DNA from: Bolinopsis microptera
Lineage: Eukaryota > Ctenophora > Tentaculata > Lobata > Bolinopsidae
Reading direction: 5' to 3'
Assembly (NCBI RefSeq): GCF_026151205.1
Contig: NC_087072.1
Location: forward strand, 19,018,103 to 19,082,102
DNA length: 64,000 nt
In this document: positions 13,961 to 64,000 of the stretch, in pieces
How positions within the stretch are numbered: position 1 is the stretch's first letter
Layout: the number at the start of each line of letters is the position of its first letter
Notes under the pieces: generated by a model
Told to the model about the DNA's origin: nothing
Database searches by the model: none
The model's input: the letters and a program-made list of their open reading frames with translations, nothing else
Program-made: the position numbers and the translations under genes

Positions 13961-22216
<8,256 letters not shown>

Positions 22217-41100: not shown

Positions 41101-41135
41101 AACTAAAACTAACTTTTACGTCACGAAACATCTGT
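35134..41135 (-). mobile_element. LTR retrotransposon without gag-pol (LARD-like)
   Basis: The 3' LTR (minus strand) is 35,134-35,562, 429 bp, bounded by TGTTA...TAACA. Next to it at 35,563-35,580 is a polypurine tract on the minus strand, AAAAAAGGGAGG. The 5' LTR begins at 41,029 and matches the first 107 bp of the 3' LTR exactly as far as I can read, then stops at 41,135 where a LINE fragment begins. Immediately inside it the minus strand reads TTGGCGACGAGGATTACG, a primer-binding-site region of the kind seen in Ty3/gypsy elements. The 5.4-kb interior is AT-rich and has no ORF longer than 86 codons and no recognisable gag, protease, RT or integrase. It is non-autonomous or fully decayed. 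It lies directly downstream of the last CEP162-like exon seen. Confidence 0.75.
40588..40915. repeat. ~29-bp tandem repeat in the LTR element leader
   Basis: About eleven units of ATCTGGGTTACCTCCCAGCA plus AGGACTTT or AGGACTTTT. Two sizes of unit alternate in the middle of the array. It lies just inside the primer-binding site, in the position of a 5' leader on the minus strand. Confidence 0.9.
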
Positions 41136-42755
41136 CAATTTTGTTGCTTTTCTCATAAGCTTCTTCTACATTTTGCCATTAATAAAAATGTGGTGTCGTC
41201 CGGCACATAGTATGAAAAGATTCAAATCGAGGAATTGAAATATCATTTATGTATAGAAGAAAAAGGAGCGTTCCAAAGAACAGAGCCTTGTGGAACTCCA
41301 TATTTAATGAAGAGGTTTTCGGAATTTACCTTGGAGTACTTCTGTTACGTGTTCAAATTTGATAAGTAGCTTTAATGAGACAGTTTGCATTGCCTCTTAA
41401 TCCAAACCTATCTAGTTTTGTTAGGAGTGTACTATGGTCGATTGTACAAATGCTTTAACTCAAATCTATAAATATCCTAGAACATGGTTTCTTTTTTTAT
41501 GCTCTCTTCAATAATCTAACAGAGTAGTTAACAGCATGGCTAGTAGAATGGACTTTGCGGAAGCCTAATTGGTTTTCATCAAGGATATTTTGTGACAGAG
41601 CGAAACTATAGATTACGGCTGTATATCACCTTTCAAATACTTACCAAAGTATGGGCAGAGTAGAGACAGGTCTGTAGTTTCCTACAACCTCTTCGTTTCC
41701 TTTCTTAGATATAGGAGGTAACTGCCCAACTTCAATACATCGGGAAATACCCGCCATCATCAGTGGTTGAAATGTTGGGCTATAACAGGGCAGATAGATG
41801 AGCTGACTTTTTGATCACAACGGATTGGGATAACACTAGATTTGCCATTTTTCCAACTTGGAAATTATTTCCATGAGCTCATAAGTAACAGTTCATTTTA
41901 GAAAATATAGAGTTGGTTTGTTGGATGGCAGAGGTAGTCTTCAATGTTGAAAATTCAGAAGCCTGTATAGGCAGTCAGCTATTGATTCATTAGATTGAGC
42001 AATGGGAGTTAAAGTATTTGTTGAACTCGTTTGCAATAACACTTCTATCTGTTGATTTTTCTGTTTTCGATTTATATATGGGGTTTGAATACTCTTTTTA
42101 CACCTCCCTCTGAGTACATTAATAGTTGCCATGTCTTCTTAACGGTTCGTGCTTATTTTCTATGATTTGTTGCAAGAGTAAGTATTTTTTGCCAGTGATA
42201 ATTACAGATTTGAGGATCCTTCGTTATACCTTAGAAGGTTTGCTCGAATCCTGGTTTTCCATCAGGGTTTGCCTTAGTTTTTTAGATTTAATCCCAGGCT
42301 ATCTTTAGATTCATGTTTTGTTTTTCAACGGCTGATGAAATACTATCTGTATCCAGGGGATATTGATAGGATTCCGTTTATTAAGTTAATGGCTTTACAA
42401 GTTTTTGCATGTTTGAATCAAGTACTACAAATAATTTTAGTAAATCCGCAGAATTCATGAGAAGTGTGGAGCTTGAGAGTATCAGTGTTCAGTAGGGTTA
42501 GGAATTTATTAAGGTTGATTGCTGAAGTCGTAGTACAGGACATGTTTTCACTTTTTGGACCAACCACGAATTCGGATGTCAGTGAATTCAAATGTGGAGC
42601 ATGTTCACCAATTCTATCTGTTATACAACCTGAGAGAACACAGTTACCAGGGTCATTTGTGAGGATGTTGTCAATACAAGATGGTTTGCAATTTGGTCCT
42701 CTCATGTGTAGTCATCGAAATAACAGGAGTGGGGAAACATTTTTCTAAATAAGGC
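41136..42755 (-). pseudogene. CR1-type LINE ORF2 fragment, decayed
   Basis: The nucleotide sequence follows 46,999-48,630, the middle of the intact ORF2, with high identity but many single-base indels. Recognisable peptides include CKPSCIDNILTNDPGNCVLS in the endonuclease part. It lacks both ends of the element and joins directly to the truncated LTR at 41,135. No reading frame longer than about 95 codons survives. The indel-rich difference resembles the noise seen in 1-13.6 kb. Confidence 0.85.
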
Positions 42756-43967
42756 ATCATCAAAAAGAGTATAGTCAATAAAACAAAAGTTTTTAATAAA
42801 ACAAAAGTTAAAATTTATTTCCAATTTCAATCAATACATATCATAAATTCTTTCTAATATGGAACACAATGCAGAATGGAATGTTTAAACTATAATTGTT
42901 GTCACTAATAATCTATTTTTACTTTCAAATTTTGAAATTAGTTACGAGTATGAAAGGCCACCACAGTCATAGTTAGGGTAAAATATAAGTCCTTAAGAAA
43001 GTTTTAAATTAAGAAGCTTGCTCTATGACTTTAAAATTTAAAATTTTAGCTAAAGATGTCTAATTTTTAAATAGTTGGTTACAGTTTTATGACTGTGTAC
43101 TGGGCATGACCAATTTTATTGAGGCTGGTAAAAGGACACAGTTGCCTGTAAGGGCTTCACCGAACCCCCTGGGGACGCACAATGTGAAAAGGATCAGGCC
43201 AGATGTTTGTATGTAGTACAATATATTTATTTCGGAGCTATGGTTACGTGGTATAGTTGGTGTCATGTTTTAAAGGTCAGTTTAGTCCTTGTGTGCTAAT
43301 TATCCATCGCAGATGCTCAGTGATGTGAGTAAAGGAAACTAAAAGCAGAATGCAGATAATGGCAACATACCGACGACCAACATAGTTTCAGTACTTTAAG
43401 TTTGGCATATTTGAATAAAGTTGAAAAGTCCCTCCAGGCTTACCAGGATCGGAGAGTACGATCCCTTTTAAGGGGGCCCAGGGGCTCTGCGCAATCTTCA
43501 AGAGAATTGTAAACAGAAGCTGATAATGATTATAATTCTATACAGTTACATAATTGAGACAATTATGGCCCCTTATTGTGGGCAGAGTATGTGTCTTTGT
43601 TGAAGTGTCCAGGTATAAAACTTATCTGAGTGACTGCATTAAAATAATTTAAAGAGAGTTCTCTTAAAAGTTTAAAACAATGGGGATAAATACTAGGACC
43701 TAATAAATCAAACAAAATGCAGCCATCAAATTTGTTATTAAGCTTTCTCTTCTCCTACGATTGACTAGTGGAACCAGTGCTGTAAGTTTGCAAGGTATGT
43801 GGACTAAGTGGGTCGAGAGTACTCAACTTGAGAGTGGGTGTTGAGAATCCTCAACTAAACTAAAGATAATGACATCCAGAAGATGAGGCAGTAGAGTGAG
43901 TGGTAGAGGCTGAAGGAGAAGAAATGTCACAAGGAGAAGGGTAGGGAGAGCACTATAATAATAATCT
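42756..43967. other. Intergenic, no gene seen
   Basis: AT-rich single-copy-looking sequence. No exon of the CEP162-like gene could be recognised, and no repeat boundary is visible. There is a GGGGGCCCAGGGGCTC patch near 43,473. Confidence 0.4.
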
Positions 43968-44237: not shown

Positions 44238-44499
44238 TGTACTGCGTCGAACTTACTGCGCCTGATTTACCGCAAACCCCAATTTACCGCTGTGTTTCTT
44301 TTCCCCAAATTCCACAGTAAATCAGGGTTTTACGGAAAGTGTGTCAAACAGTATTATATATACATTCAATTTAATCAAGTGATGCAATTGGCAGAGCACA
44401 ATCAAATTTTTAGTGTTGCAATTGGCAGAGCAAAATTCATTGCTACCAATAATTTTTTCAAAAAATTTTTAACAAAACACATGATCTACTCCATTATAG

Positions 44500-45090
44500 G
44501 GGCAGGGATGAGCTTGTATGAGACTTCTGATAGCTGAATCTCACGTTGGTGTCCACCTTCTTTCCTTGGTACCCTCGTAGAGCAACAAGAGTTGTTCTCA
44601 ACATTGCAAATCTTATCCTTGTTCTCACATGTCTTACTACATCACAGTACCTTTCCTTCCTTTTTCTTGCAATGAGGTCTGTTACTCTGTTGACGAACTG
44701 CTTACACTCTTTAGACATTCCTCCAGATGTGAAGAATACAGCCGGGGTGAAGGTAGCCTTCTCCACATTCAACACTCTCTCCAAGTACTTGTCCTTCTTC
44801 TCGTTCTCGTTCTCTCGTATACTTCTTGAAGAGTTTTTGTCCTGTTTGATTATAAGCAATTGGGGTGTGAAACCCTTATGTCAAGAAGGTCTTATCAAAT
44901 GGAGTCCAAACTCCTCTAGCAGATACATCAAGCCGAACTTGGTCACCTGTTATAGTCTTGGGGTTGAGGCAGTCACCCTCATTTACCTTCTGTAGCTGGG
45001 GTTGAACTTTTACATCATGACATACCTCACGAAGCTCAATGTTATCCAGAAGCTGAACTGCCTCCATGAGGCGTTGGGACTACCACAAGC
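44500..45090 (-). pseudogene. Retroelement polyprotein C-terminus (nuclease-like), copy 2
   Basis: Minus-strand fragments of the family at 25,323 and 58,134. VCHDVKVQPQLQKVNEG and VRLDVSARGVW come in one frame (45,067-44,876). After a frameshift DIRVSHPN follows, then in a third frame NVEKATFTPAVFFTSGGM and RTRIRFAMLRTTLVALRGYQ. The N-terminal zinc-motif part is missing. At least two frameshifts make it non-functional. The order with the zinc-motif fragment at 43,968-44,237 mirrors that at 58-60 kb, so both pairs may descend from one composite. Confidence 0.6.
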
Positions 45091-46099
45091 AATGCTATCG
45101 ACTACACTAAAAGCTTATCTACTAAAACATATCAGGACGGATCAAGAAAACAACAATTACAAGAAACCAACAATTTTATTTAGTATCAATTAAAACAAAC
45201 AAAAATAAATTTTACATATAACTATCACGACCTTTAGTCCGTTTCAAAACGGAGGCTTATAAATATTATTATATTATGATTGTAAAATAAAGGATAAAAT
45301 TTTAAATTTGTTTCACTAAAAATTTGTTTCACAATAAAATTATGTACACAAATTTATGTTTGATTATTTCAGTTAAACAAAAATTCAGTTAAACAAAAAT
45401 TCAATTTTATGCCATTTATTACAGAGTAAACAAGTTTACAATAAATCAATTTGATATTTAAAGGAATCCTAATTCAATGTGTAGTATGGTTGTCACTCTT
45501 TAAATAGATTAGATATAGGTTGACGGGGCAAAGGAGTGTTCGTGCTGTTCGCTATTGCTCACACCAAACGGCAACCTAGTAAAATTTTTGTATGGACACC
45601 GGTCTCCATCACGATACAAAATTAGGATTGAAGAATTTATTGTATAACTTTTAGTGCAGTGGAGGAAGCGGTGTGGTGCATTAATAGAGTGACAGCCTAC
45701 TGATTTAGAGTTGTTTTTACGTGAGCATAATGGGTATATTTTTGGACCTAAAGGCTTTACTATGGCAACTTTAAAATTGGTTCTTTTAATCATTTATTAA
45801 ATATCACTTTAAAAATATATAAATCTGGAATCTGTTCACACTGTGAACCAGTCCTATAAAAAAAACCTCTTAAATCAAATATTTAAAACGTCTCAATAAT
45901 GGAAATAGTCATACAATTAAGAAATTTACCAAATTCTTAATATCTACCTTAAGAGAAAAATACCTACCTAAGTCAATGTCTACCTGTAATACACTAAATA
46001 TTAGGTTAAATACATAGGTGGTGGAGTCAGCACACATTTACCAAAATCAAAAATTTTTTAATAGGAGGAACCTGTGGGCCGAGAAGTGAGAACACTGGA
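45091..46099. other. LINE 3' flank and repeat pieces
   Basis: 45,230-45,330 carries, on the minus strand, GTGAAACAAATTTTTAGTGA and TTACAATCATAATATAATAA, sequence that also lies on both sides of the RTE-type LINE at 52.3-56.0 kb. 45,509-45,793 (-) is a 94-codon frame with a Cys/His pattern (YPLC...H...HC) vaguely like the LINE zinc tail; not called as a gene. The 3' end of the intact LINE lies somewhere in 45.8-46.1 kb, but I see no clear tail. Confidence 0.4.
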
Positions 46100-49000
46100 T
46101 TACATTTGTTGAAGGGGATTGTTTTCAAATGACAGCTGCATTATGTCATAATCGCTTGAAGTCCATGCTGAATCATTATAAGCATGTTGCAGCTTTAGAA
46201 GTGCCTTTTTCAGGCGACTTTTAGCAAGGCTAATCTTGTAGGAGTAGTCAAAAAGCTTAAGTTTAGGTGCAATTGTGCTCCAGATTTTTGTGGATCTTGA
46301 TATGAAGTCATTAGATGGGAGTTGTGAAATGAGAGTGGTTTCCTTTCTAGAAGATGGCTGATAATGCTGTTGCAGTGATGCTGGGCACCTTAATTTCAGT
46401 ATTTTAAAAACTTCCATAAAAGTGTGATATGTATATAAATTTTTGAAAGCCAGGATGTTTTGTTGCTTGAAAAGTGGTTTACAGTGCTCTAGTTGGAAGA
46501 ATGTATGGTCAAGTGCCTGGCTGTCAAACTCTCTTGTTCTTGCACATGTTAGGAACTTGTTTAGGTATGCCTCTTTATCACCAAAGAGGACCCGTACGCA
46601 GTGCTTCTGAGACAACCAGATACTTGCTGTCCTAAAGAGTGCTGCATCACCCCAAACTGAGATACAATATGTAAGGTGGGATTCAAATAGTGTGTGGTAT
46701 AGGTCTTTATGGAGTTCCTTCGGTACAGAGTCCCTAATTCTATTTAAGGTGGCAGAGGCATAGTTTAACTTTCGTTTAAGTGCTGTTATATGAGGCCCCC
46801 AGGAAAGCTGTTCATCAATAACAACTCCAAGAAACTTTGTTGCTTTGGTTTTTTTAATTGGAAAGCCATCAATATGGAGTTGAAGCGAATCTGGAAATTC
46901 TACTGGTTTACTAGCCTTTGGTTTAAAATGCATATAACAGCACTTTGACATGTTGATGTGTAGTTTGTTAAGGATCATATACTTTTTTATACAGCTTAGC
47001 AATTTGTTGCCTTTCTCATAAGCTTCTTCTACAGTTTTGCCATTAATAAAAATGTTGGTGTCGTCGGCAAATAGTATGAAAGTTCCTAAATCTGAGGAAT
47101 TGGAAATATCATTTATGTATAGAAGAAAAAGGAGCGGTCCCAAAACAGAGCCTTGTGGAACTCCATATTTAATGATGAGGTTTTCGGATTTTTCATTAAG
47201 GACTTCTGTGTACTGTGTTCTATTTGATAAGTAGCTTTTAATGAGACAGTTTGCATTGCCTCTTATTCCATACCTATCTAGTTTTGTTAGGAGTGTACTA
47301 TGGTCGATTGTATCAAATGCTTTACTCAAATCTATAAATATTCCTAGAACATGGTTTCGTTTTTTTATGCTCTCTTCAATAATCCTAACAGAGTAGTTAA
47401 CAGCATGGCTAGTAGAATGGGACTTGCGGAATCCAAATTGGTTTTCATCAAGGATATTTTGTGACAAAGCGAAACTATAGATACGGCTGTATATCACTTT
47501 TTCAAATATCTTACCAAATATGGGCAGAGTAGAGACAGGTCTGTAGTTTCCTACATCCTCTTCGTTTCCTTTCTTAAATATAGGAGTAACTTTCCCAACT
47601 TTCAATACATCGGGAAATACCCCGCTCATCATCAGTTTATTGAAATGTTGGGCTAAAACAGGGCAGATTAGATGAGCTGACTTTTTGATCACACGGATTG
47701 GGATATCACTAGATTTGCCATTTTCCAGCTTGGAAATTATTTCCATGAGCTCAGTATGTGAACAGTCAGTTAGGAATATAGAGTTGTTGTTGGATGGCAG
47801 GAGGTAGTCTTCAAATGTTGAAAATTCAGAAGCCTGTATAGGCAGGTCAGCTATTGATTCATTTAGAGTGGAGGCAATGGAGTTAAAGTATTTGTTGAAC
47901 TCGTTTGCAATAACCCTTCTATCTGTTATTTTTCTGTTGTCGATTATAAATGAGGGTTTGATACCCTTTTTACACTTCCCTCTGAGTTCATTAATGATTT
48001 GCCATGTCTTCTTACGGTCGTGCTTATTTTCTATGATTTGGTTGCAAGAGTAAGTATTTTTTGCAGTGTTAATTACAGATTTGAGGATCCTTCGGTATAC
48101 CTTGAAGGTTTGCTCGAGATCCTGGTTTCCATCAGGGTTTGCCTTAGTTTTAGATGTAATCCAGGCATCTTTTAATTCATGTTTTTTTTCAACGGCTGAT
48201 GAAATACTATCTGTTATCCAGGGGTTATTGATAGGATTCCGTTTAGTAGTTTTTGGCTTTACAAGTTTGCATGTTGAATCAAGTACATGATCAAATAATT
48301 TAGTAAAATCCGAGAATTCATGAGAAGTGTGGAGCTTTGAGAGGTCAGTGTTCAGTAGGGTTAGGAATTTATTAAGGTTGGCATTGCTGAAGTCGTAGTA
48401 CTGGACATGTTTTTCACTTTTTGGACCAACCTCGAATTCGATGTCAGTGAATTCAAATGTTGGAGCATGGTCACCAATTCTATCTGTTATACAACCTGAG
48501 AGAACACAGTTACCAGGGTCATTTGTGAGGATGTTGTCAATACAAGATGGTTTGCAATTTGGTCTCTCATGTGTAGGTATCGAAATAACAGGAGCGAAAC
48601 CATTTCTAAATAAGCATTCTTCAAAAAGAGTATAGTTGCCATGACCAGCGTCACCATTCACTTTAAGAAGGTCAACATTAAAGTCCCCCATTATACGTAC
48701 ACCAGATTTAGGGAGGAGTTTACATATGTGATCAAATGACTTAAGGAAATTATGAATGTCACCATTTGGAGGGCGATAGATGACCCCTGAGATGAGTGTG
48801 AGCTTGCTGGATGATTGAGTGATCTTAACAAAGATTGATTCAATATCAGGCGTGCAGTAGCCAAGATTTTCTATGACTTCTGCATTAAGGTGATTTGCTA
48901 CATAGAGGGCAACACCAGTCCCTTTCAGCTTGTTTTCCTGAGTGACCTGATAAAAACTGTTGTATTGCGGTATTCTGTATAGTTCTTTAAGAGGTTCATC

Positions 49001-49495
49001 TGTGTTTGTTTCAGCGATACCAATTACAGAGAAATTTAGTTCAATTCGTTTGAGTTCAACGTTAAGACAATCGAAGTTGGTTTTGTTACCATCTAAGTTG
49101 ACAAAGTAGGATGTGAATTTTGAGTGTGTGGATGAAAGATTACATGAGTTTTGAAGTTCCTTGACTACCCTATTAAGATCAGCTGTGGAGTAGCTCTGAC
49201 ATTGGTCTAGAACATTCGAAATTTTTTGAATAGTTTCGTCATCACATCCACCTTCATCATCGTAGAATTTATCACCACCATCACTAATCATCCCAGAGAA
49301 GGGGTTGTAGCGTGGTATCACGTTCAGTGAACAAACCTTACATACCCATAGACCGTTGGTGGGGCAGAAACCAGCTACTTTAAAACATTTAGTATGAATA
49401 GCTGTCCGACAGGCTTCACATTCTAGTAGGGGCTGCCCAATGTTGATGGGCCTTGAGCATGGCTCACAGACCTCCTTAATTAATTTCATGATCAT
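46100..49495 (-). CDS. LINE ORF2: PHD finger, APE endonuclease, reverse transcriptase (CR1-type)
   Basis: About 1,130 residues in one uninterrupted frame, stop at 46,100. I chose ATG 49,495 because it is the first Met; the frame is open up to a TGA within ORF1. Residues 22-67, counted from the open frame at 49,531, form a C4HC3 PHD finger (C22/C25, C38/C41, H46/C49, W62, C64/C67). Then comes an APE-type endonuclease with IAETN, YRPPNG, GDFNVD and a final GDHAP motif. The reverse transcriptase has QFGFRKSHSTSH, IDLSKAFDTIDH, GVPQGSVLGP and the catalytic FADDT. A C-terminal domain of about 250 residues follows. The protein nicks target DNA and reverse-transcribes the element RNA. ORF1 ends 13 nt upstream, suggesting termination-reinitiation. 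The sequence gives no sign of decay. CR1/L2-group membership is inferred from domain order. Confidence 0.9.
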   Translation of the reverse strand: MIMKLIKEVCEPCSRPINIGQPLLECEACRTAIHTKCFKVAGFCPTNGLWVCKVCSLNVIPRYNPFSGMISDGGDKFYDDEGGCDDETIQKISNVLDQCQSYSTADLNRVVKELQNSCNLSSTHSKFTSYFVNLDGNKTNFDCLNVELKRIELNFSVIGIAETNTDEPLKELYRIPQYNSFYQVTQENKLKGTGVALYVANHLNAEVIENLGYCTPDIESIFVKITQSSSKLTLISGVIYRPPNGDIHNFLKSFDHICKLLPKSGVRIMGDFNVDLLKVNGDAGHGNYTLFEECLFRNGFAPVISIPTHERPNCKPSCIDNILTNDPGNCVLSGCITDRIGDHAPTFEFTDIEFEVGPKSEKHVQYYDFSNANLNKFLTLLNTDLSKLHTSHEFSDFTKLFDHVLDSTCKLVKPKTTKRNPINNPWITDSISSAVEKKHELKDAWITSKTKANPDGNQDLEQTFKVYRRILKSVINTAKNTYSCNQIIENKHDRKKTWQIINELRGKCKKGIKPSFIIDNRKITDRRVIANEFNKYFNSIASTLNESIADLPIQASEFSTFEDYLLPSNNNSIFLTDCSHTELMEIISKLENGKSSDIPIRVIKKSAHLICPVLAQHFNKLMMSGVFPDVLKVGKVTPIFKKGNEEDVGNYRPVSTLPIFGKIFEKVIYSRIYSFALSQNILDENQFGFRKSHSTSHAVNYSVRIIEESIKKRNHVLGIFIDLSKAFDTIDHSTLLTKLDRYGIRGNANCLIKSYLSNRTQYTEVLNEKSENLIIKYGVPQGSVLGPLLFLLYINDISNSSDLGTFILFADDTNIFINGKTVEEAYEKGNKLLSCIKKYMILNKLHINMSKCCYMHFKPKASKPVEFPDSLQLHIDGFPIKKTKATKFLGVVIDEQLSWGPHITALKRKLNYASATLNRIRDSVPKELHKDLYHTLFESHLTYCISVWGDAALFRTASIWLSQKHCVRVLFGDKEAYLNKFLTCARTREFDSQALDHTFFQLEHCKPLFKQQNILAFKNLYTYHTFMEVFKILKLRCPASLQQHYQPSSRKETTLISQLPSNDFISRSTKIWSTIAPKLKLFDYSYKISLAKSRLKKALLKLQHAYNDSAWTSSDYDIMQLSFENNPLQQM

Positions 49496-49508
49496 AGTAA
49501 TGTGTCGG

Positions 49509-51245
49509 TTAGGTTGGACCAGTGGATCCAACCCTCTGTGCTGACTCCCTAGACACCTTTTCCTTCAGAAACACACAGTTTTTCATGTGGCTTACAAACT
49601 TAGCTAAACCTCTACTTCCTAAGTGAATCATGTCGTTACCCCTAGTGAATTTAACAGATAATAGCTTATTGTTATCTAAAAAACCATACATACCCTGAAA
49701 CCAAATATTAGGAAAACAGTTCTTTATCATCTCCTGTACCAAGTTGTTGTAGAGCATTATATTTTTATTCATTTCATGGATTCTTGATGGTAAAACAGGT
49801 ACAACAAAAATGTTAGTAAGTGGACACAATTGACGTATTTCCGTTAGTTTATTCTTCAGTGTTGACACTGCCTCGTGGATATCTGAGACATTTTTTACGT
49901 TTTCGCAGCGTAGATCGTTGGTACCACACATAAGGAAAGCGTTGGAGAATCCAGCACACAGGTGTGGATTGATGTCTTTGACACGGGCAGCCTTTACTCG
50001 TTTACCAGGGAAGGAATGACCAACTTTACCTGTACCATCCCCAAAGTTGACATCTTTGGTATTCGAATCACCGATTAAAACGATGCTTCGTCGAGACTGG
50101 CTGCTGAGAGATCTGAAGGTGATCGAAAATCTCTCCTCTGTTGAGGTATCATCAGATAATTTTGGCACACCGTGGCGGTACCAATTTTGTGAAGACCTTG
50201 TCATGGTGTAAAGTGAGTTAGACTTCACATCAAGCTTAACAGGATCTTGGTCTCTGTCTTGTTTGGACTCAAAAAGCACAGTTCTAGTTGCACCAATGGA
50301 GATTGTGACAATTTTTGAGTTGGCAAGAATCGTGGATTCATCATCAGAATGCATAGCTAGGTAGCTTTGGGATGGGGAAAGTCTGTCTGAGGAAGGATAG
50401 TGGTTAATGAGGACCGAGTTTGGCTTGTGCTCGAGTTGTAGTTCTGAGGAGAACCTGTCAATAATAGAAACAAGTTCAGGTGGGATGGGCTCCTGTTGTT
50501 TAGGGGGCTGGGAACCAGTGTAGCTGTAGGACTCTCCATATAGCCGGACGCTGTGGCCATTCTCTTCAATGAAATCTCCAGAGTCCTTCAGATAACCTAA
50601 AAGGTCTCCTACACTGCTCAATTCCTCGTTTGTCAGATATAACTCTTTGTACTGCTCGTAAGGCTGTTCAGGACATTTTAGATTTCTTTTCGTGGGTGAT
50701 GGAGTAACAGGTCTAGGTTGTTCTTTGTAGTTAAGCTGAGGGGATGCATTTGCTCTTCCTTTAAACTCCTGAATTTCACTGTTAAGGTCGTCTAGGCGAG
50801 CATTCAGGGATGTTATGTCAATGCTCGGGATTGACCTTTCAATGCTTTCTTTAACTGATTCACTTATCTTCTGGAGCAATGAAGTTTCCAGGAGGGTGCT
50901 CTCGTTGAGTTGAACTGCTGTGGCACAGGTAATGGCTTCTTCAGCAAGAATTTTTTCTTTTTTAGCAGATGGGTGGTTCTTAGGCCTAGGAAAGATGCAA
51001 GTGTAACACCAGGGACATAGCCATTTTTGGCTGATGCAGTCTAAATCACTCTGGGAGAGTTTATTGGTACCAGGTAGATTACCGCAAGAGGCATGCCATG
51101 ATTGTTTACAGTCTGAGCACTGTATTACCCAGTCTTTTGTTTGCAATAATTTTATTTCAACACTTGATCCCTGTTCAGACATCTCTTTGGGGCAATAGCA
51201 TTTCCATTTCAGATATGTGCAAATAGTAGAGGCTCTTACGGGCAA
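49509..51245 (-). CDS. LINE ORF1: PHD-like finger, AlkB-type dioxygenase, SGNH esterase
   Basis: A 578-codon open frame. Domains in order: a PHD-like Cys/His cluster (C16, C18, C43, C46, H51, C54, W75, C77, C80); a predicted coiled coil (about 112-165); a 2-oxoglutarate/Fe(II) oxygenase of AlkB type (about 235-380) with NHY at 281-283, HSD at 299-301, H358 and R372-x5-R378; and an SGNH hydrolase (about 386-560) with GDSN at 392-395, GTND at 441-444 and D538-x-x-H541. Esterase domains are known in ORF1 proteins of CR1-group LINEs. AlkB proteins demethylate nucleic acids, so this could act on the element RNA or cDNA; that is inference. The frame begins with TTG inside a MITE inverted repeat. 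LINE sequence proper starts at 51,223 and the first in-frame ATG is 51,182, after C16/C18. The true start is therefore lost or displaced by the MITE. Confidence 0.85.
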   Translation of the reverse strand: MPVRASTICTYLKWKCYCPKEMSEQGSSVEIKLLQTKDWVIQCSDCKQSWHASCGNLPGTNKLSQSDLDCISQKWLCPWCYTCIFPRPKNHPSAKKEKILAEEAITCATAVQLNESTLLETSLLQKISESVKESIERSIPSIDITSLNARLDDLNSEIQEFKGRANASPQLNYKEQPRPVTPSPTKRNLKCPEQPYEQYKELYLTNEELSSVGDLLGYLKDSGDFIEENGHSVRLYGESYSYTGSQPPKQQEPIPPELVSIIDRFSSELQLEHKPNSVLINHYPSSDRLSPSQSYLAMHSDDESTILANSKIVTISIGATRTVLFESKQDRDQDPVKLDVKSNSLYTMTRSSQNWYRHGVPKLSDDTSTEERFSITFRSLSSQSRRSIVLIGDSNTKDVNFGDGTGKVGHSFPGKRVKAARVKDINPHLCAGFSNAFLMCGTNDLRCENVKNVSDIHEAVSTLKNKLTEIRQLCPLTNIFVVPVLPSRIHEMNKNIMLYNNLVQEMIKNCFPNIWFQGMYGFLDNNKLLSVKFTRGNDMIHLGSRGLAKFVSHMKNCVFLKEKVSRESAQRVGSTGPT

Positions 51246-51978
51246 AAAGGCGTGTTTTCTGCTACGAGTTTAGAGACCTAACCGCTAATTGGACACAATA
51301 TTATGATGTCTAAGGATCGATAATATGTAAAGAAGCAATAAGATCACATTATTTTCTATTTGGTGTGAAAATATGATCTAGAACATAATCTCGCTGAGTT
51401 ATAGCTGTTTGAAATTTATGATGAACGCGCGGGTGCCAATTGATAACAACTAAATGCTTTTGCGCGTAGTGCGCGTCGAAAATTTGGCAAAAACGCTTGC
51501 GGAGTGACAATATTCAAACTTCGATAAAGTATATGAAGTGGGTGCTTCTCGGAAACGAAAAATTTAGGCGAACACGATGAAACTATTTTTGGGTTGATTT
51601 AATACAACTGCAAAAAATTATTCAAACTTCAAGCAAAAAAGTCAAAATTTTTACCACTTTTTTGGATTTTTACCCCAGAAAAAATAGATAAGAGGGATTT
51701 GTTTTATTTTTATACCATCTTGTGCGGCTGTCTTTCAGCTATCTCCATGCAAATTTTGCCGACATGCCAACAAAATTAACTTGCTCAAAATATCAAAAAA
51801 CATGGTTTTTTGGCCTATTTTTGGCCCAAAAATCGGTTTTTTGCGATTTTAACCCAGAAAAATCAGTCCAATCATCTTGAAACTACTTTTAATCGATTCT
51901 ACGGTCAAAAATACGTCTAGTAAGGTGTATCTGGGGTCCCTAGCGTATTGAGCAGACAATGCCCGTAAGAGCCTCTAC
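51226..51978. mobile_element. TA-flanked MITE at the 5' end of the LINE
   Basis: A 753-bp element with perfect 19-bp inverted termini GTAGAGGCTCTTACGGGCA and a TA on each side (51,224-51,225 and 51,979-51,980), as for Tc1/mariner targets. There is no transposase. The interior is AT-rich with GCGCGTAGTGCGCG and long A/T blocks. It sits across the 5' end of LINE ORF1. The left 0.3-0.45 kb recurs at 56,950-57,394. Confidence 0.8.
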
Positions 51979-51980
51979 TA

Positions 51981-52323: not shown

Positions 52324-55300
52324 CACAGGAGGGGTGCAAAGAAGTGAAACAAATTTTAGTGAAACAAATTTAAAATTTTATCCTTTATTTTACAATCATA
52401 ATATATTGGTGGTTAAGGGGTTTTCCAAACTCCAGGGGCTCGTGAAGTGTCTTACACAACCTCTCCGAGCCCAAGATCCGTAGTGCGTGGTGAAGAGCCA
52501 CACCCTTCTTGAGGTGCCACTGTTAAGCTTAGTAGCCTGTTCTGGGTGATTCCAGTTAAAACAGGTGAACGGTAACAGAACACTGCGGCTCTAGACCAGT
52601 ACAGGTCGAAAAATATAACCGGGACATCTGTCTCGTTAGGACTGCATGCAGTTCATCGGGTGCGAAGGGCCAGCATCCCTTCCACCTCAAATAACAACGC
52701 TACTGAAACAACACACACATCAAATGGACGGAGTGCTACTTCCAATTCAAGGACGGATGTTCCAGCATGACGGAGGCTGGGCAAAGCCTACGGGACCCCA
52801 GTCGCCTGATGAGAAGAGGGGGTACTCGTCATCCGACCAGATTTATTAGTCAACAGATCATCCATGTTGACCCTGCTTCCAACAAATCAATCCAGTAAAT
52901 TATTGCAAACAGTTTTTACGTTTTGGAACATGGAACGTTCTATCTCTTGTCAGCTCATCTACACAGCTCTACCAACTTAGTAAAAACATTGATCAGTACA
53001 GATTGGATCTTTTGGGGATCACCGAGACTCACATGCCTGGATCTGGCACCACTCTACTGGACAATGGCAGTCTACTCATCCATTCCGGTAGAGTCGACGG
53101 GATCAAGAGACAGGGAGTCGGTCTCAGTCTTTCAAAACGAATCAGAAACTCCCTGATATCGTTCACTCCCACATCGGAGCGGGTTTTAAACTGCTAGGCT
53201 GCATAGTAAGCAAATCAACATCTCTGTTGTTGTGGCCTATGCTCCAACTGAGGGTGCAGAGGAGAGTGAGAAAGATAAGTTTTATAGGACACTCACAGAT
53301 ACATTTGATGGGCTACCTCGTCACGATATCAAGTTACTGCTCGGCGATTTTAATGCAAAAGTAACATCAGGCAGATATGGAAGTGAAGCGGTCATCGGTG
53401 GGGAATCACTCCATAGCTCATCAAATGACAACGGGACAAGACTTGTGGATTTCTGTGCGACGAACCAGCTTGTCATCGGGGGAACTCTCTTCGAGCACAA
53501 GAACATTCACAAGGGAACATGGCGGTCCCCCAACGGGCTCACCGTCAATCAGATAGATCATATCTGCATTGGAAAGCGGTTTCGTCAGTCACTTTTTGAT
53601 GTTAGGGTATGTCGCGGGGCAGACATCGGCTCCGATCATTATCTGGTTCTAGGACTGCTGAAAATCAAACTTCAGTCAGTGACAAAGATCAACGCCAACA
53701 GGCCCAATGTGCCTGCCATTGAGCGCCTGAGGGATAGTAATACGGTTTTAGAGTACAATGTGGCTCTTCAAAAAACCGATTTGCAAGTCTGGATAGTGAG
53801 GTCGACCTCGAGGATATGTGGCGTAATCTCAGTCAGACCGTCACTGATGTCTCACTGGAGGTACTATGCAAAAGACCCCGGAAGGCAAAGGAGCAACACC
53901 TGTCACGGAAGACCAAGGATTTATTGACTCAGCGGGCACAGTTTAAGCGCAAAGACCCAAACTCGGACACTAACAGGTCAGAGTATTCTAAACTTAATAA
54001 GTTAGTCAAGAAAAGCAGCAAGCTAGACGACAATAACTGGGCAGTAGCTCAGTTAGAGTAGCTACTGATCTTGAGGAAGCAGCGAGCAAAGGTCAGCAGC
54101 GTGAGGTATGGGCAAAGATCAAGAAGATCTCTGGTAAGAACAAGAAGCCTCAAGCACCTTGTGTCCGGGACAAGGACGGTAGGAAGATCACGGATCCCCA
54201 ACAGCAGAGGGATAGGTGGAAGGAGCACTTTACTGAACTTCTGAACCCCCCATCATCAAGTGTCAACCTTGCCGACCTTGATACAGTACCACCCCAACCC
54301 CACTTTAACTCTCTCTCTTGTTCGGATGGACCACCCACCAGAGACGAGATTAGTTATTCCCTGACAAAGCTTAAGAACAACAAAAGCCCAGGAGTGGACG
54401 GGATAACTAACGAGCAACTGAAGTATGGTGCGAGTGCTCTAGTTGATCAACTAGAGTGTCTATTCAAGAAAGTGTGGGAAGAAGAGACTGTTCCTGAAGA
54501 TTGGTTAAAGGGTGTGATCATTGTTATTGGGAAGAAAGGAGACACTTCAGTCTGCGGGAACAACAGAGGGATCACATTAAGGTCTACAGCATCCAAGCTT
54601 TTTCAGATGATTCTTCTTAAGCGGTTACATGCTGGTATGGAGTGTCTCCTCAGGGAGAATCAGTGCGGATTTAGACAGAACCGCTCATGTATTGATCAGA
54701 TTTATTCTCTCCGAACTATTATTCATAACTGTCTTGAGTTTAACATTCCTCTTTACATTAATTTTGTGGATTTCAAGGCAGCGTTCGATTCTATCAGAAG
54801 GGACTTTATTTGGTGCAGTATGAGACACTATGGGCTGCCTGAAAAATATGTCAGAATATTTCAGTCATTTTTTGGGGGTACCATGAGTGCCGTGAGGGTT
54901 AATGGGGAGCTGACAGACTGGTTTGATGTTAACTCAGGCACAGGTCAGGGTGACATTCAAGCACCTCCTGTCTTTAATTTCTGCCTAAACTTTTCTGCAT
55001 TTCTGGCTGAGACCAACAAGATCATCAGTCAAGGCGCAGTGCTGCAGAAAGAGATGAAGACGGTCGAGGAAAAGGTCATTCTGGACACCGATTATGCTGA
55101 TGACATGGCTATTATGGACAACTCAGGGGAAGGCCTACAGGAATCAACTGATCTATTAGTTCATTACAGCTCCTACGCTGGGCTCAGAATAAATGCAAAG
55201 AAGACCCAATGCATGGCTGTAAGCAAGTGCGCCTCCCAGCGACCTTTCATCAAGGATGATTGTATTGAGCCGTCGGTTGAGGGTGAACCCGTCGAGCAGG

Positions 55301-56568
55301 TTAGCAACTTTGTCTACCTGGGTGCAACTATTAGTGGGGATGGGACAATCAACAGAGACCTGGATGTCCGTATCCAGAAGGCTAATGGCGCCTTTCATCA
55401 GCTCTGGAACATTTGGAATAGCAGAACTATAAAGACTCCAACCAAGATCAGGATCTATAGGGCTGCTGTCCTCACCATCTTGTTGTTGTGTATGGAGCTG
55501 AAGTCTGGAACACCACCAAAAAGCAGATGAAACGTTTCGAGGTTTTCCATCAAACCTCCTTGAGAAGGATCCTTAGGATTAAATGGTTCTTTCATGTAAC
55601 CAACGACGAAGTTCTTAGGAGGGCTATCATCAAGTCAGTTGAGACTTTCATCAGTGCTGCCAAGCTACGTTGGTATGGACATGTAGTTAGAATGCCAGAC
55701 TCTAGACTACCGAGGTTTCTGTTGAACTGGAAGCCAAACTATGGAAAGAGGTCAAGGGGCAGACCCCGTAAGAACTGGAAGTCCTGCGTACTCGAAGATG
55801 CTGCTAAGTTTACAGGTGTTGAAAACATCGACAACGACACAACAGAAGCTTTGGCTACCAATCGAGTACAGTGGAGACATATGTTACGCCGCCAACGCGA
55901 TGTGTGTGATGCAGGCCACTCCAACGACTAGGAGGAGACCTTACCATGTAACATGTATGTAATATAATAATATTTATAAGCCTCCGTTTTGAAAGTTTTA
56001 AATTTTAATATATTCACATTTCTATTTAAAATTCAATTTAATGTATAAGTCAATAACTGGCCGCCAAAGCCGCGCATTCTTGAAAACAGGATTAAATTGT
56101 TTATGATTATACGACGAATAAAAATAAATTTAAAACTATCCGTGGTTTTTTAAAATAAATTACAAATTATAATCTTTCCTAAATCCAAAGCCAGCTTTGT
56201 AAATTTACTATCAGATCATAATATATTGTCAATTCTCAGTATTTACAATGCAACATTTCATTAATCTACATACAAGCGTACTCCAGCCCCTGCACGCCAG
56301 CACGCATCCGTTCTTATGCGGCGCGGCTCAAGCCACTCACGTATTATATTATACTTTTTGCTTTCTTCAGAAACTGCTGCTCACTGCTGCTCACTGCTAC
56401 TAAATGCTGCTCACTGCTGCTATGGGCGCGCGCGCGACAGCAGCAGTGAGCAGCAGTTAGTAGCAGTGAGCAGCAGTGAGCAGCAGTGAGCAGCATGAGC
56501 AGTTAATAGCAGTGAGCAGCAGTGAGCAGCAGTGAGCAGCAGTTTCTTTGCACTTAGCCCCTCCTGTG
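52324..56568. mobile_element. Hairpin transposon with CTGCTGCTCA repeats, copy 2, itself interrupted
   Basis: The termini are CACAGGAGGGG (left) and CCCCTCCTGTG (right) with the 4-bp duplication GGCC at 52,320-52,323 and 56,569-56,572. These match the hairpin element at 27,984. The foldback core lies at 56,368-56,550: CTGCTGCTCA units, a GCGCGCGCGCG centre, then GAGCAGCAGT units. After the left 20 bases (...GTGCAAAGAA) unrelated sequence carrying a LINE begins and runs to about 56,366, where AGAAACTGCTG resumes, so about 4.0 kb was inserted into the left arm. Confidence 0.65.
52919..55931 (+). pseudogene. RTE-type LINE, endonuclease and reverse transcriptase, frameshifted
   Basis: Peptides in order: FGTWNVLSL and DLLGITETHM (endonuclease start), VAYAPTEGAEE, LLGDFNAKV, NQIDHICIG, IGSDHYLVLG (endonuclease end), KNNKSPGVDGI, QCGFRQNRSCIDQI, FVDFKAAFDSI, GTGQGDIQAPPVFN and TDYADDMAI (RT), then RWYGHVVRM and the C-terminal GRPRKNWKSCVLED. 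Motifs and order fit the RTE/CFDP2-like clade. The frame shifts near 53,190, 53,770, 54,056 and 55,487, so no full protein is made. The longest open piece is 54,058-55,485. The copy is inserted in AT-rich sequence that is also seen at 45,230-45,330 without it. The 3' end is near 55,970 (ATGTAATATAATAATA). Confidence 0.85.
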
Positions 56569-58133: not shown

Positions 58134-59017
58134 CAGTGAAAAGATCCCACATGCATGTGAAAAAGGTGCATCAAGCTGGCTGACCGGACTTCCCTATGAG
58201 AAGTACGGCTTTGTCCTGAACAAGCGAGGGTTCAAAGACGCGATACCATTGAGATATGCTCTACCCATTGCCAACATAGCCAAGAAATGCATTTGTGGCA
58301 AAGATAACACCTACAACCACATTCTTATTTGCAAGAAAGGAGGCTTTGTCAACAGCAGACACAACCGACTGAGAGACACTGTTGCAAGCATTCTTGAAAA
58401 AATCTGTAATGAGGTTGTTGTAGAGCCCACACTCCAGCCATGCACTGGAGAAAGCCTTCACCCTGGTACCATCCTTGATGATGGGGCAAGGCTCGACATA
58501 GCAGCTAGAGGTTTGTGGTCACCAATGGAGATGGCATTTTTTTGATATCAGGGTTTTACACCCCGGAGCCAAATCCAACGCTAATCACAATACCCCAGCA
58601 AAGATGTACAGCAAGCATGAGAGAGAGAAAGAAAGGAAATATGGAGACCGCTGTGTACAAATTGAAAAAGGAACCTGCAATGGCCTTGTATTCTCGACCA
58701 CCGGAGGTATGGGCCCACAGGCTACCATGTTCCTTAAACGAGTAGCAACACTTCTGGCAGCCAAGACCAGCCAGGACAAAAGCCTCATCATGGCAAATCT
58801 AAGACGTCGTTTGCGGTTTGAGCTACTTAAGACAGTATTGATTGCAGTGAGAGGACACAGAGGACGGTATTATGAGAAAGCAATACCTGTTGATGAACTG
58901 GACCTAAATCTCGCACACACCACCAGTGATGAAGACAGGGGTGATGATGTTGATGATGAAGATAATGAAGTTGAGGATGAGGCTGAGAATGTAGAGGAAG
59001 AGGTTTCAGAAGAGTGA
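58134..59017 (+). pseudogene. Retroelement polyprotein C-terminus (nuclease-like), copy 3, nearly intact
   Basis: Open from about 58,134: ASSWLTGLPYEKYGFVLNKR, then CICG...H...CKKGG, RHNRLRD and DDGARLDIAARGLW. A run of seven T at 58,537-58,543, where six would keep frame, causes a premature TGA. One base shift restores DIRVLHPGA and the conserved tail GTCNGLVFSTTGGMGPQ. The C-terminus is unusually acidic (DEDRGDDVDDEDNE) and ends at TGA 59,015-59,017. No RT domain lies upstream, so the copy is 5' truncated. The single-T frameshift could be real or a homopolymer error. Confidence 0.6.
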
Positions 59018-59992: not shown

Positions 59993-61116
59993 AGGTTTTT
60001 ATTTGGATACTGTGATACCAATTCTAGAATAGGTACATTAGATTTTAAGGCCACAGGGGGGGGTCGAGGCCTCAAAAAATGCAAAAAAACATTATGCTTT
60101 GAATCAATATATATTTTTGTGGTGGATACTTTGCCACCACTCATTTGTCTGTAGCTATTTTACTTTTTTTTATAAATGAGGTTAACCAATTCTCATTTAA
60201 CCTCATTTTTTTGATAAATCGATAATGGAGGGCAGAAATATTGATGCCATTACAACTGAAAACTACGATAAGCTTTGTTTTTATTGTTTTTGTGTTATTT
60301 CAGCAGTTAAACTTTGAAAAATATACAAATAAAGGCAAAATTTTCAAAAATCACATAACATAAAAAACAGTTTTTTGCCTCTCCTGAAAACCTCGAATTT
60401 TTGACTTCAAAATCTATCTTCTCCTAGAGTTTTTATCCATTTCACCTCAAATTTGGAACTTATGTTCCTGACATAAATTTAAAAGTTTGTTATGTAACGA
60501 TTGTTGTAATTTTGCTCCTAACTCTTTTTATGAGGTTAACCATTTTAAATTTTGTAACCAGCACTCATGGTTAACCTCATATCTCAGCTTTGGAGCAAGA
60601 TATTATAAATCGTTACATAACAAAAACTCAAAATACCTTGAAGAACATTGTTGCCAAGTTACAAGGTTCTAAGTCATAAACTGAAAAAGAAGATAGATTT
60701 TGAACACGATTTCATTTAAAGTTTTCATTTACAATAGAATTACAGGTAAACCTCAAAATTCAACGCGCGATATCTTCAAATAGGAAACTTTGTTTTCGGT
60801 AAGGACAAAAGCATTTGAAAATTTAGATCGAGCTCTACAACATATCTCAAAATCTCAAAATCGACCTCGGACCCCCCCCTGTGGCCTTAATAGCTTTGTT
60901 GACGAAGATGGTCTGCTGAATCAGCAGTTTTGTAGATATAAGAAGCCGGATGACCCAATTCACCTTGGATCAAACGGTATATTCAAACTCTCCCGGGCTT
61001 TTGCTCACAAGATATTTGGTAGCCCTGTTGACGGGAGATCATTCAGTGATGTTGTTAATGCCAAAGCTAGAGGCAGATTTTCCCCACGACCACGTAGATC
61101 TATACTTCAGTCATGA
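59993..61116 (+). pseudogene. LINE ORF1 esterase C-terminus, interrupted by a TTAA element
   Basis: A fragment of an ORF1 protein related to 49,509-51,245. The frame reads FLFGYCDTNSRIGTLDF up to TTAA 60,045, then resumes after the inserted element with NSFVDEDGLLNQQF and DDPIHLGSNG, the SGNH block V (DxxH), and ends at TGA 61,114-61,116. The catalytic-serine block is missing because the copy is 5' truncated at about 59,993. ORF2 starts at ATG 61,113-61,115, overlapping the stop as ATGA. Confidence 0.65.
60049..60886. mobile_element. TTAA-flanked palindromic element, family B
   Basis: TTAA at 60,045-60,048 and 60,887-60,890 flanks an 838-bp inverted-repeat element with ends GGCCACAGGGGGGGGTCGAG and its reverse complement. 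Internally it shares short motifs with family A (AAATCTATCTTCTCCTA), so A and B look distantly related. There is an AT-rich centre with GAGGTTAACCATTTTAAATT. No transposase. Confidence 0.82.
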
Positions 61117-64000
61117 TAGTTAGATTGATATGCGAAATTTGCTGCTGCTGCAATAAACCTGTACGAGCTGGACACCCTTTCATAATTTGTCAGATGTGTG
61201 ACAAAATAATGCACAAAAAATGCAAAACTAATGACAACATAGTCAAATTTCGAGATGAAATATACTGCAAAGTCTGTATTGAAGCCAACGATATTATTCG
61301 ATACAACCCTTTCTACCAAGCTCCCCACTTTGCTAACAACGGCCTTATTGATGATGAGCCAGTTAATTATATTGAATCTATCTACAACAGCTCAAAAATT
61401 CTTGAAAACTGCAAAACATTCTCCATAACAGAGTTGAATGCCACCACCCTGCCTGGAAATTCAGTCGAATATATGTCCACTTTATTCCTCAACATTGATG
61501 GGAATGCAACAAACTTTGACAACTTTGCAGTTGAGCAGTCTAGTATAAACCACAAGTTTTCTGTTATTGGTCTTGCAGAAACAAACACTGATGCTGACAA
61601 TGGAACACTATATCAGCTTAGTGGATACTCCTCGTGTTACCAATCCCGTTATTTCTGTCAAGACAAAAACCAGTTCAAGGCTAAAGGATCAGGAGTTTGT
61701 CTTAACCTGAAAAACTCTCTAAACTTTAATAAGATTACTGGATTATCTCTCTGTAATGAGCACATAGAATCACTGTTTGTATCTATCACCAGTATGAAAG
61801 ACCCAACCGTTGTAGGGGTTATCTACCGTCCTCCAAACGCATCACTTGAACTGTTTAACGAAGCATATGAACGTATTCTCTCTAAACTGAATGGCAAGAA
61901 GGTATATATCCTTGGGGATTTCAATGTTAACATTTTAAACCACCCATCTTCATCAGAGGACAAATTCCAAGAAATAATATTTAACAATGGCTTTATACCA
62001 ACCATATCAGTGCCAACTCACCATATGCCTGGTTGTTCCAGGACTTGTATTGACAATATCCACACCAATGTATTAGACCAATCCCTTATCTCTGGTGTCA
62101 TATCTGACAAGATCTCCCATCACCACCCTATATTCACTTTTGTTAAGCTTTCCCCCGACTCTGTGTCACTATCTGATTCACCAGACAAAATTACTATACA
62201 CTACGACTATAGTAATGCTAACCTAGAGAAGCTCTGTCTTGAAATAGAAAACGATTTGGATATGTTCCACTACAGTTGTGACACATTTGACTCTTTTATG
62301 CAGCTATTTCAAGAAAAAATAGACTTGTCTTGCAAACTTCCAACTCCAAGAACCACTAAACGTAATAGCATAACCAACCCTTGGATTACCCAGGGCCTAA
62401 TTAATTCCATCGAGAAGAAAGCTAGATTGTATTTCGAATGGAAAAAGACTTGTACATTAAAATTACCTGACGGGGATCCGAATAAGCACATTTGCTACAA
62501 GGAATTCGACAAGTTTCTCAAAAGCTCAATAAATATGGCAAAGGCTATGTGCTACACTAGAAAATTCGAAAAGTACAGCATGAACTCTAAAAAGACGTGG
62601 GAAGTTATTAATGAACTCCGTGGTAAAACTATGTCTCGATGTAAGGACGATTTTGTCATAAACGGTCAGAGAGTTACCTGCAGACGAATAATTGCTAACA
62701 AATTTTGTGAATACTTTACATCTCTTGCAAGTAATCTCAATAAAAATGTACTGTCGAACAATAGTATTTCTCTGGAACCAATTGAATCATTTGCTCAGTT
62801 CATGTCAAATTCAGTATCTGACTCCATTTATCTGGAAGAAACTAATAAAGACGAGATCATTGAGGTGATCAAAGATTTTCAAAATGGCAAGGCGAGTGAC
62901 ATACCAATAATTGTTGTAAAGAAATCATCAAAGCTTATAGCTGGTACCTTGGCCAGGCTTTACAACACATGTATACAAAGTGGTACATTCCCGACTATTT
63001 TTAAAACTGGTAAAGTTATTCCTATTTACAAGAAAGACAATAAGGAATGTATCGAAAACTATCGGCCTGTATCAATATTACCTTTATTTGGAAAAATTTT
63101 CGAGAAGATCATTTACAAACGGCTCTATAATTTCTTCACATCTAAAGGTGTACTGACAGACTCACAGTTTGGATTTAGAAAAGGTCATTCCACCACTCAT
63201 GCTCTACACAAATCTATAGACTCCGTTACAAAGACTCTAGCTGGCAATAAACATGTCTTAGGAATATTCATTGACTTAAGCAAAGCCTTCGACACCCTTG
63301 ACCACAACATTCTTCTAAGCAAATTAAACTCCTATGGTATTAGGGGCACAGCACTTACCTTACTTAAAAGCTATTTGACTAACAGAAAGCAGTATGTTAT
63401 GTATAACGATGTACCATCAGAAACACTGGATGTGAAATTTGGGGTACCACAGGGGTCAATTCTAGGGCCGTTACTTTTCCTACTGTATATGAACGATATA
63501 GTGAACTGTTTTTCTGACAGTGAGGTGAAATTTGTACTTTATGCTGATGACACTAATATCTTTATATCAGGACCATCTAGAGAAGCAACATACAAAAAAG
63601 CAAACTTAGTTCTTAAACATGTGTCGATTTACATGAAATGTAATCTACTCCATATCAATATGTCTAAATGCTGCTACATCCATTTTAAACCTGCCTCTGA
63701 ATATGATGAGACCTGTGCAAGGACCAGACCATTTGCTAACCTACTAGATGAGTCTAGGTCAATATTCATCGATGGTAAGGTTATTACTAAAGTCAAGGAT
63801 ACCAAATTCCTAGGTATTGTTATAGATAGTAAGTTAAACTGGGCTGCCCATATGCACTACATTCGTAAAAAACTTCGGTCCATGACTGGTGCAATCTGTA
63901 GAATTCGACACTCGATACCTGGTGAACTATATTTGAAAATATATAATGCTCTCTTTGAATCACATCTCAGTTATGGTATAAGTGTCTGGGGCGTTGTCCT
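61113..64000 (+). CDS. Second LINE ORF2: zinc finger, APE endonuclease, reverse transcriptase (runs off window)
   Basis: An uninterrupted frame of 962 codons from ATG 61,113 to the window end, with no stop found on reading it through. The N-terminus has a Cys/His-rich PHD-like cluster (ICEICCCCNK, CQMCDK, HKKC, CKVC). Next comes an APE endonuclease with LAETN, YRPPNA and GDFNVN; where a final SDH-type motif is expected it has KISHHHP. The RT has QFGFRKGHSTTH, IDLSKAFDTLDH, GVPQGSILGP and YADDTN. The layout equals the ORF2 at 46,100-49,495 but the sequence is clearly diverged, so it is a separate family of the same group. It follows ORF1 through an ATGA overlap. The C-terminus lies beyond the window. 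Whether the element can move is doubtful because its ORF1 is truncated. Confidence 0.88.
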   Translation, partial: MIVRLICEICCCCNKPVRAGHPFIICQMCDKIMHKKCKTNDNIVKFRDEIYCKVCIEANDIIRYNPFYQAPHFANNGLIDDEPVNYIESIYNSSKILENCKTFSITELNATTLPGNSVEYMSTLFLNIDGNATNFDNFAVEQSSINHKFSVIGLAETNTDADNGTLYQLSGYSSCYQSRYFCQDKNQFKAKGSGVCLNLKNSLNFNKITGLSLCNEHIESLFVSITSMKDPTVVGVIYRPPNASLELFNEAYERILSKLNGKKVYILGDFNVNILNHPSSSEDKFQEIIFNNGFIPTISVPTHHMPGCSRTCIDNIHTNVLDQSLISGVISDKISHHHPIFTFVKLSPDSVSLSDSPDKITIHYDYSNANLEKLCLEIENDLDMFHYSCDTFDSFMQLFQEKIDLSCKLPTPRTTKRNSITNPWITQGLINSIEKKARLYFEWKKTCTLKLPDGDPNKHICYKEFDKFLKSSINMAKAMCYTRKFEKYSMNSKKTWEVINELRGKTMSRCKDDFVINGQRVTCRRIIANKFCEYFTSLASNLNKNVLSNNSISLEPIESFAQFMSNSVSDSIYLEETNKDEIIEVIKDFQNGKASDIPIIVVKKSSKLIAGTLARLYNTCIQSGTFPTIFKTGKVIPIYKKDNKECIENYRPVSILPLFGKIFEKIIYKRLYNFFTSKGVLTDSQFGFRKGHSTTHALHKSIDSVTKTLAGNKHVLGIFIDLSKAFDTLDHNILLSKLNSYGIRGTALTLLKSYLTNRKQYVMYNDVPSETLDVKFGVPQGSILGPLLFLLYMNDIVNCFSDSEVKFVLYADDTNIFISGPSREATYKKANLVLKHVSIYMKCNLLHINMSKCCYIHFKPASEYDETCARTRPFANLLDESRSIFIDGKVITKVKDTKFLGIVIDSKLNWAAHMHYIRKKLRSMTGAICRIRHSIPGELYLKIYNALFESHLSYGISVWGVV

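Follow-up and report, generated by a model that had tools for sequence, protein, structure and literature searches.

The window analysed here is a 64,000-nucleotide stretch of the genome of the ctenophore Bolinopsis microptera (contig NC_087072.1, positions 19,018,103 to 19,082,102). On its minus strand it carries the first open reading frame (ORF1) of a long interspersed nuclear element (LINE), in which an AlkB-type dioxygenase domain is followed by an SGNH esterase domain. The frame, between 49509 and 51245, was open over 578 codons with no internal stop, as a preliminary description of this DNA had stated. The TTG taken there as its start was not real; likeness to other copies of the element set in only at 51138, around residue 36, and the alignment to these copies placed the LINE-derived part of ORF1 (residues ~36–578 of the frame) between 49509 and 51138. 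The AlkB-type 2-oxoglutarate (2OG)-Fe(II) dioxygenase domain is encoded between 50097 and 50678 and contained the complete iron/2OG pattern, an HxD...H triad and an R...R pair, at the residues named in the preliminary description: H299 and D301 (codons 50343–50351), H358 (50172–50174), R372 (50130–50132) and R378 (50112–50114). The Pfam model 2OG-FeII_Oxy_2 (PF13532) matched residues 236–378 with an E-value of 7e-23 (82.3 bits against a cut-off of 31.2), and the isolated domain gave 1.1e-23; by this measure the domain call is far above chance.

The SGNH/GDSL esterase domain (49566–50096, minus strand) lies behind the AlkB domain, and the three expected motifs could be read in it: GDSN from residue 392, GTND from 441 and DxxH, here DMIH, from 538. 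The SGNH catalytic set is S394, N443, D538 and H541. Lipase_GDSL was below its cut-off when the whole protein was used (0.0026, 18.4 bits) and just over it when the esterase domain was isolated (5.2e-5, 23.9 bits against 23.6); Lipase_GDSL_2 remained below for the isolated domain (5.7e-4, 20.9 bits against 32.9). A PHD-like zinc finger had also been described. Intact family copies do show its pattern, CPC...C..C....H..C...C..C, but the window copy retains a remnant with 6 of the 8 ligands (50982–51137, minus strand; located by alignment and by a Pfam PHD match of 5e-4, below cut-off). The first Cys pair, CPC elsewhere, is missing, and C16 and C18 of the frame face no Cys in other copies. PHD matches were below cut-off in all the proteins tested, the best being PHD_4 in L038 (4.1e-6).

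The LINE itself occupies 45369–51138 on the minus strand and belongs to a group of copies designated subfamily A. Alignment with the four other subfamily A copies (L015–L018) showed 96% DNA identity over ~5.78 kb, only from 51138 to ~45369. The longest of these copies, L015, L017 and L018, match one another over ~6.8 kb; because the DNA shared with the window copy stops at 51138, the latter is 5′-truncated, and the sequence upstream of this point is not LINE. Target-site duplication was looked for at the window copy, and a single 8-base candidate was found, 13–21 bases away from the junction. ORF2 (46100–49531, minus strand, an open frame with its first ATG near 49495) follows ORF1 directly and encodes a reverse transcriptase (RVT_1, 1.7e-38), which, together with the presence of 5′-truncated copies, bears out the description of the esterase-bearing frame as a LINE ORF1. 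ORF2 of the window copy was 97.5% identical in L015; its endonuclease match (Exo_endo_phos_2, 2.1e-5) and the weak PHD/C1-like matches at its N-terminus were below cut-off. Subfamily A is not uniformly intact, as ORF1 of L018 and ORF2 of L017 are each split over two frames. The combination of PHD-like finger and esterase points to a family that is probably CR1/L2-like.

A search of the assembly containing the window (264.65 Mb, 232 contigs) revealed at least 76 ORF1 matches, a lower bound since 75 of 1039 first-look candidates were scored. In-frame stops were absent from 69 of the 76, and identity to the window ORF1 clustered near 88–100%, 41–61%, 37% and 33–34%. The AlkB–esterase fusion is widespread in this genome and not peculiar to the window element. 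The window copy was aligned with 29 fetched stretches, mostly full-length, the remaining matches being left out. All of the iron/2OG residues, H299, D301, H358, R372 and R378, were invariant in the 30 aligned copies, as were N276, S344, M348 and Q353 and the SGNH residues D393, S394, N395, G441, N443, D538 and H541. Y283 was replaced by Phe in 10 of the 30. Among nine representatives with pairwise identities down to 30%, 82 of 542 columns were invariant and these included all nine catalytic positions (hypergeometric test, 2.8e-8); the test on the five AlkB positions inside the AlkB domain alone gave 9.3e-5. Copies of subfamily C were nearly identical among themselves, as were those of subfamily E, which indicates recent movement.

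Selection was assessed by dN/dS (omega; Nei-Gojobori) in 15 pairs of copies. Seven pairs were usable, having at least 25 AlkB-domain changes and unsaturated dS; they share sequences and so are not independent. The AlkB omega was 0.19 for the window copy against L015 and 0.18 against L017, 0.11, 0.16, 0.10 and 0.16 in four subfamily B pairs (dS 0.4–0.9) and 0.15 in one subfamily D pair. In five of the seven pairs, Fisher tests returned 8.7e-6 to 1.7e-25 for the AlkB domain and, for the SGNH domain, 1.9e-3 to 6.3e-20; the SGNH omega in these five pairs was 0.09–0.17. The remaining eight pairs comprised three that were saturated, three with two or fewer domain changes and two with a higher omega. 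The range of 0.10–0.19 in the seven measurable pairs agrees with the earlier proposal of selection on the function, and on this comparison the AlkB enzyme is kept by purifying selection rather than carried as a passenger. That both active sites are intact across many related elements suggests that the enzyme aids copying of the element.

A Pfam search of the same genome for AlkB domains, in which 150 of 587 candidates were scored, gave at least 151 matches over cut-off; among the matches listed, one contained in-frame stops. Fifteen loci were returned; three resemble host genes, and the other twelve resemble mobile elements. The former, L045, L046 and L047, matched ALKBH2 (3.9e-60), ALKBH3 (2.5e-39) and ALKBH3 (1.6e-27), respectively. 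Of the latter, L058 corresponds to the window copy, a single ORF1-like family (644–646 amino acids in unbroken frames) accounts for L048 and L050–L057, and L049 and L059 are similar to Helitron L060. AlkB also accompanies an SGNH region in six further family representatives, of which five are ORF1-like and one is a Helitron. The ORF1-like representatives were L051 (646 amino acids), L061 (593), L062 (551), L076 (742) and L075 (746), with AlkB E-values of 5.7e-23 to 4.9e-12 and the SGNH region after AlkB. Lipase_GDSL_2 did not reach its cut-off in L051, L061, L062 or L076 and gave no match in L075; the esterase part of L075 was recognised by its 36% match to the window domain. Reading of the sequences indicated that the GDS motif is lost in L051, L061 and L062, and that an endonuclease-like frame starts ~290 bases downstream in the 646-amino-acid family. 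The 593-, 551-, 742- and 746-amino-acid families are candidate LINEs.

In Helitron L060 (3783–9899, plus strand, from the same genome), a single frame encodes an N-terminal SGNH domain and AlkB together with DUF6570, Helitron_like_N and PIF1. Its SGNH match covered residues 10–177 (7.5e-6, below cut-off) and its AlkB match residues 488–620 (4.2e-21), and DUF6570 and Helitron_like_N gave 8.1e-14 and 1e-7. PIF1 was located 6.2 kb downstream, within a frame that agreed in both strand and length (3388 amino acids). AlkB and PIF1 were paired in five frames in total (3388, 3321, 3366, 3226 and 2459 amino acids). The AlkB–SGNH pair was thus present in two element classes, with the domain order in the Helitron reversed relative to the LINE.

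Among solved structures, the best sequence matches to the window AlkB were ALKBH2 (1.5e-4) and ALKBH3 (2e-4), its HSDDE stretch aligning to HRDDE of ALKBH2, and by sequence it appears nearer to ALKBH2/3 than to ALKBH5/FTO. An alignment with three plasmid-borne and three phage AlkBs contained 17 invariant columns, including both His, the Asp and both Arg. The AlphaFold model of the domain showed the AlkB-type double-stranded beta-helix fold, which supports the predicted assignment; a single-sequence model of the SGNH domain alone had a pLDDT of 46.8. In a tree of 27 AlkB domains, 18 of them from transposable elements (TEs), the TE domains were split from host ALKBH2/3, bacterial and phage AlkBs with support of 94/97, and in a second tree with two more TE rows with 90/85, neither being starred. 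Some rows are long branches. The domains were cut by their HxD pattern, and in three Helitron rows (both trees) and L075 (second tree) a later, wrong HxD was caught (HLDKS, HPDSS); the true motifs, HKDDE and HSDNE, lay inside the cut domains and a few N-terminal residues were lost. Monophyly of the LINE domains alone was not rejected (p-AU 0.13, approximately unbiased test), a grouping of the TE domains with all three host ALKBHs was weakly rejected (0.034) and one with ALKBH2 alone was not (0.068). The simplest reading of these trees would be one TE AlkB lineage handed between element classes.

Origin of the entire ORF1 from a phage or virus was considered and rejected, as there was no phage match at 1e-5 and no relative in viral contigs. 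The AlkB domain alone likewise had no relative in viral contigs; elsewhere it gave weak matches to 16 plasmid and 6 phage records (27–30% identical, E up to 1). The one match from a scan of prokaryote genomes, 31 residues of zinc finger in a Chloroflexi metagenome-assembled genome (L044), was taken as no relative.

No AlkB-bearing LINE or Helitron was found in the open-licence literature, represented mostly by titles and the starts of abstracts; RepBase lies outside it and may hold such an entry. Within that scope, the arrangement is non-standard for a LINE, as the preliminary description had put it. In the available text of Metcalfe and Casane (PMC4120745), the ORF1 domains of 448 elements are PHD, RRM, CCHC, Tnp22, coiled coil, zinc finger/leucine zipper and esterase, with no AlkB, and esterase ORF1 is restricted to vertebrate groups of the Jockey superfamily. 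PMC3905857 reports esterase elements across many animal phyla, so an esterase ORF1 in a non-vertebrate is not by itself a novelty. That source also describes the esterase ORF1 proteins (ORF1ps) of RepBase as having no structural RNA-binding domain, leaves their mode of RNA binding open, and shows that the esterase of zebrafish ZfL2-1 ORF1p binds phospholipids, from which a membrane role was speculated. The window family resembles such Type IV ORF1s, ZfL2-1 among them, in having an SGNH esterase ORF1 ahead of an endonuclease-reverse transcriptase ORF2 (PMC3905857, PMC4120745), but it has, ahead of the esterase, a PHD-like finger and a complete AlkB dioxygenase.

As far as the accessible literature goes, the nearest known case is that of orchid (Phalaenopsis) Ty3/Gypsy elements, which encode an ALKBH5-like ORF2 with demonstrated demethylase activity and an intact HxD...H (PMC9289625). 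That AlkB belongs to a long terminal repeat element of one plant lineage and forms a separate ORF, with no esterase mentioned in the available text, whereas the window AlkB lies inside a LINE ORF1, appears closer to ALKBH2/3 and has counterparts in many families. ALKBH2, ALKBH3 and the bacterial and phage AlkBs share the fold, as modelled here, and the iron/2OG residues; they are not transposon proteins, and the TE domains group apart from them (unstarred support). Platyfish Helitrons that have captured an SGNH gene, texim, also tie an SGNH hydrolase to a Helitron (PMC4021074), although in L060 the frame that holds SGNH also encodes AlkB, DUF6570, Helitron_like_N and PIF1. Bdelloid retroelement classes have been reported to share domains, GDSL esterase among them (PMC5408684).

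As one explanation, which we favour with modest confidence, a LINE ORF1, probably CR1/L2-like, gained an AlkB domain between its zinc finger and its SGNH esterase, linking a putative RNA/cDNA demethylase to membranes. The ORF1p would oligomerise on and pack the element's own RNA. AlkB would bind single-stranded nucleic acid and oxidatively strip N-methyl groups from the bases of LINE RNA or nascent cDNA, which may let the reverse transcriptase go on reading the template or keep the template clear of host marks. The likeness to ALKBH2/3 makes N1-methyladenine or N3-methylcytosine a weakly more likely substrate than N6-methyladenine. AlkB could also supply the RNA-binding part missing from esterase ORF1ps, and the esterase might tether the ribonucleoprotein to membranes, as proposed for ZfL2-1 ORF1p (PMC3905857).

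Several observations weigh against this explanation. The window copy is 5′-truncated and lacks its own start codon, and the CR1/L2 placing is based on domain order, not on a tree. The aligned copies were chosen by length, which favours intactness. A319, P361 and K362, which do not vary among the bacterial and phage AlkBs in the alignment, were kept in 5, 11 and 6 of the 30 copies, and R321 was Cys in both subfamily G copies. The AlkB omega was 0.35 for L015/L017, from nine changes, and 0.43 for L019/L030, from five changes, with 0.76 across ORF1; ORF1 of L030 looks damaged in its 5′ part. The alignment supplied to AlphaFold consisted of known AlkBs, so the modelled fold depends on the sequence call.

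AlkB might instead act on DNA: during target-primed reverse transcription it would repair alkylated or methylated bases, either at the target site or in the cDNA. The nearest solved relatives are ALKBH2, which was crystallised on double-stranded DNA, and ALKBH3, and the same domain pair is held by a Helitron, Helitrons moving as DNA; known LINE ORF1 proteins, however, act on element RNA, and we regard this alternative as unlikely. Slightly less probable again is that AlkB serves solely as a nucleic-acid-binding module for which catalysis is not needed. The lack of a structural RNA-binding domain in the RepBase esterase ORF1ps (PMC3905857) and the RNA binding retained by the orchid Gypsy AlkB after mutation of its iron site (PMC9289625) favour such a module, but a mere binder would be expected to lose some of the five iron/2OG residues, which all 30 copies keep despite ~30% identity. 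Chance fusion of an AlkB gene fragment with a LINE at a single locus, or an assembly error there, which the truncation and the foreign sequence at the 5′ end of the window copy could suggest, is scarcely credible given that the same order recurs in another 29 copies elsewhere in the genome, and in other families as well.

Extending the demethylase explanation beyond the window family, a transposon-specific AlkB lineage, coupled to an SGNH esterase, may have spread over unrelated element classes in one genome, namely several LINE ORF1 lineages and Helitrons. The elements would then encode their own enzyme acting against base methylation of their nucleic acids, as an eraser or in repair, and it would be the first of its kind in LINEs and in rolling-circle transposons; this is offered tentatively, as possible and somewhat short of probable. 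If true, LINEs and Helitrons would join one orchid Gypsy lineage as carriers of transposon-encoded demethylases, and the conflict between host marks and a transposon eraser would become testable with one point mutant. A strongly selected AlkB would be a candidate answer to the RNA-binding gap, and to the question of role, raised for esterase ORF1ps (PMC3905857).

Other elements were also present in the window. The first bases of the 578-codon frame lie in a 757-bp element (51224–51980, no strand assigned) that is not LINE; it is MITE-like (resembling a miniature inverted-repeat transposable element) and has perfect 21-bp inverted ends, TAGTAGAGGCTCTTACGGGCA. A second related LINE ORF2, 43.7% identical, lies at 61113–64000 (plus strand) and is cut by the window end; upstream of it, at ~60,870–61,110, only the apparent C-terminal end of an SGNH esterase remains. 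A decayed, frame-broken copy of a related ORF2 was found at 41128–42776 (minus strand). Another LINE at 53232–55931 (plus strand), its frame broken by stops, has a reverse transcriptase just 25% identical to that of ORF2 (RVT_1, 4.6e-27; DUF6451), preceded by what reads as an endonuclease-like frame. A short conserved frame (VEK.T....VF.T.GGM and similar) occurs three times, at 25764–26141, 44494–44859 and 58604–59017, and probably belongs to another retroelement; Pfam gave no match for the one tested (58604–59014). The minus-strand frames at 5627–6840 and 17170–19118 consist of short repeated peptides, which suggests tandem-repeat DNA.
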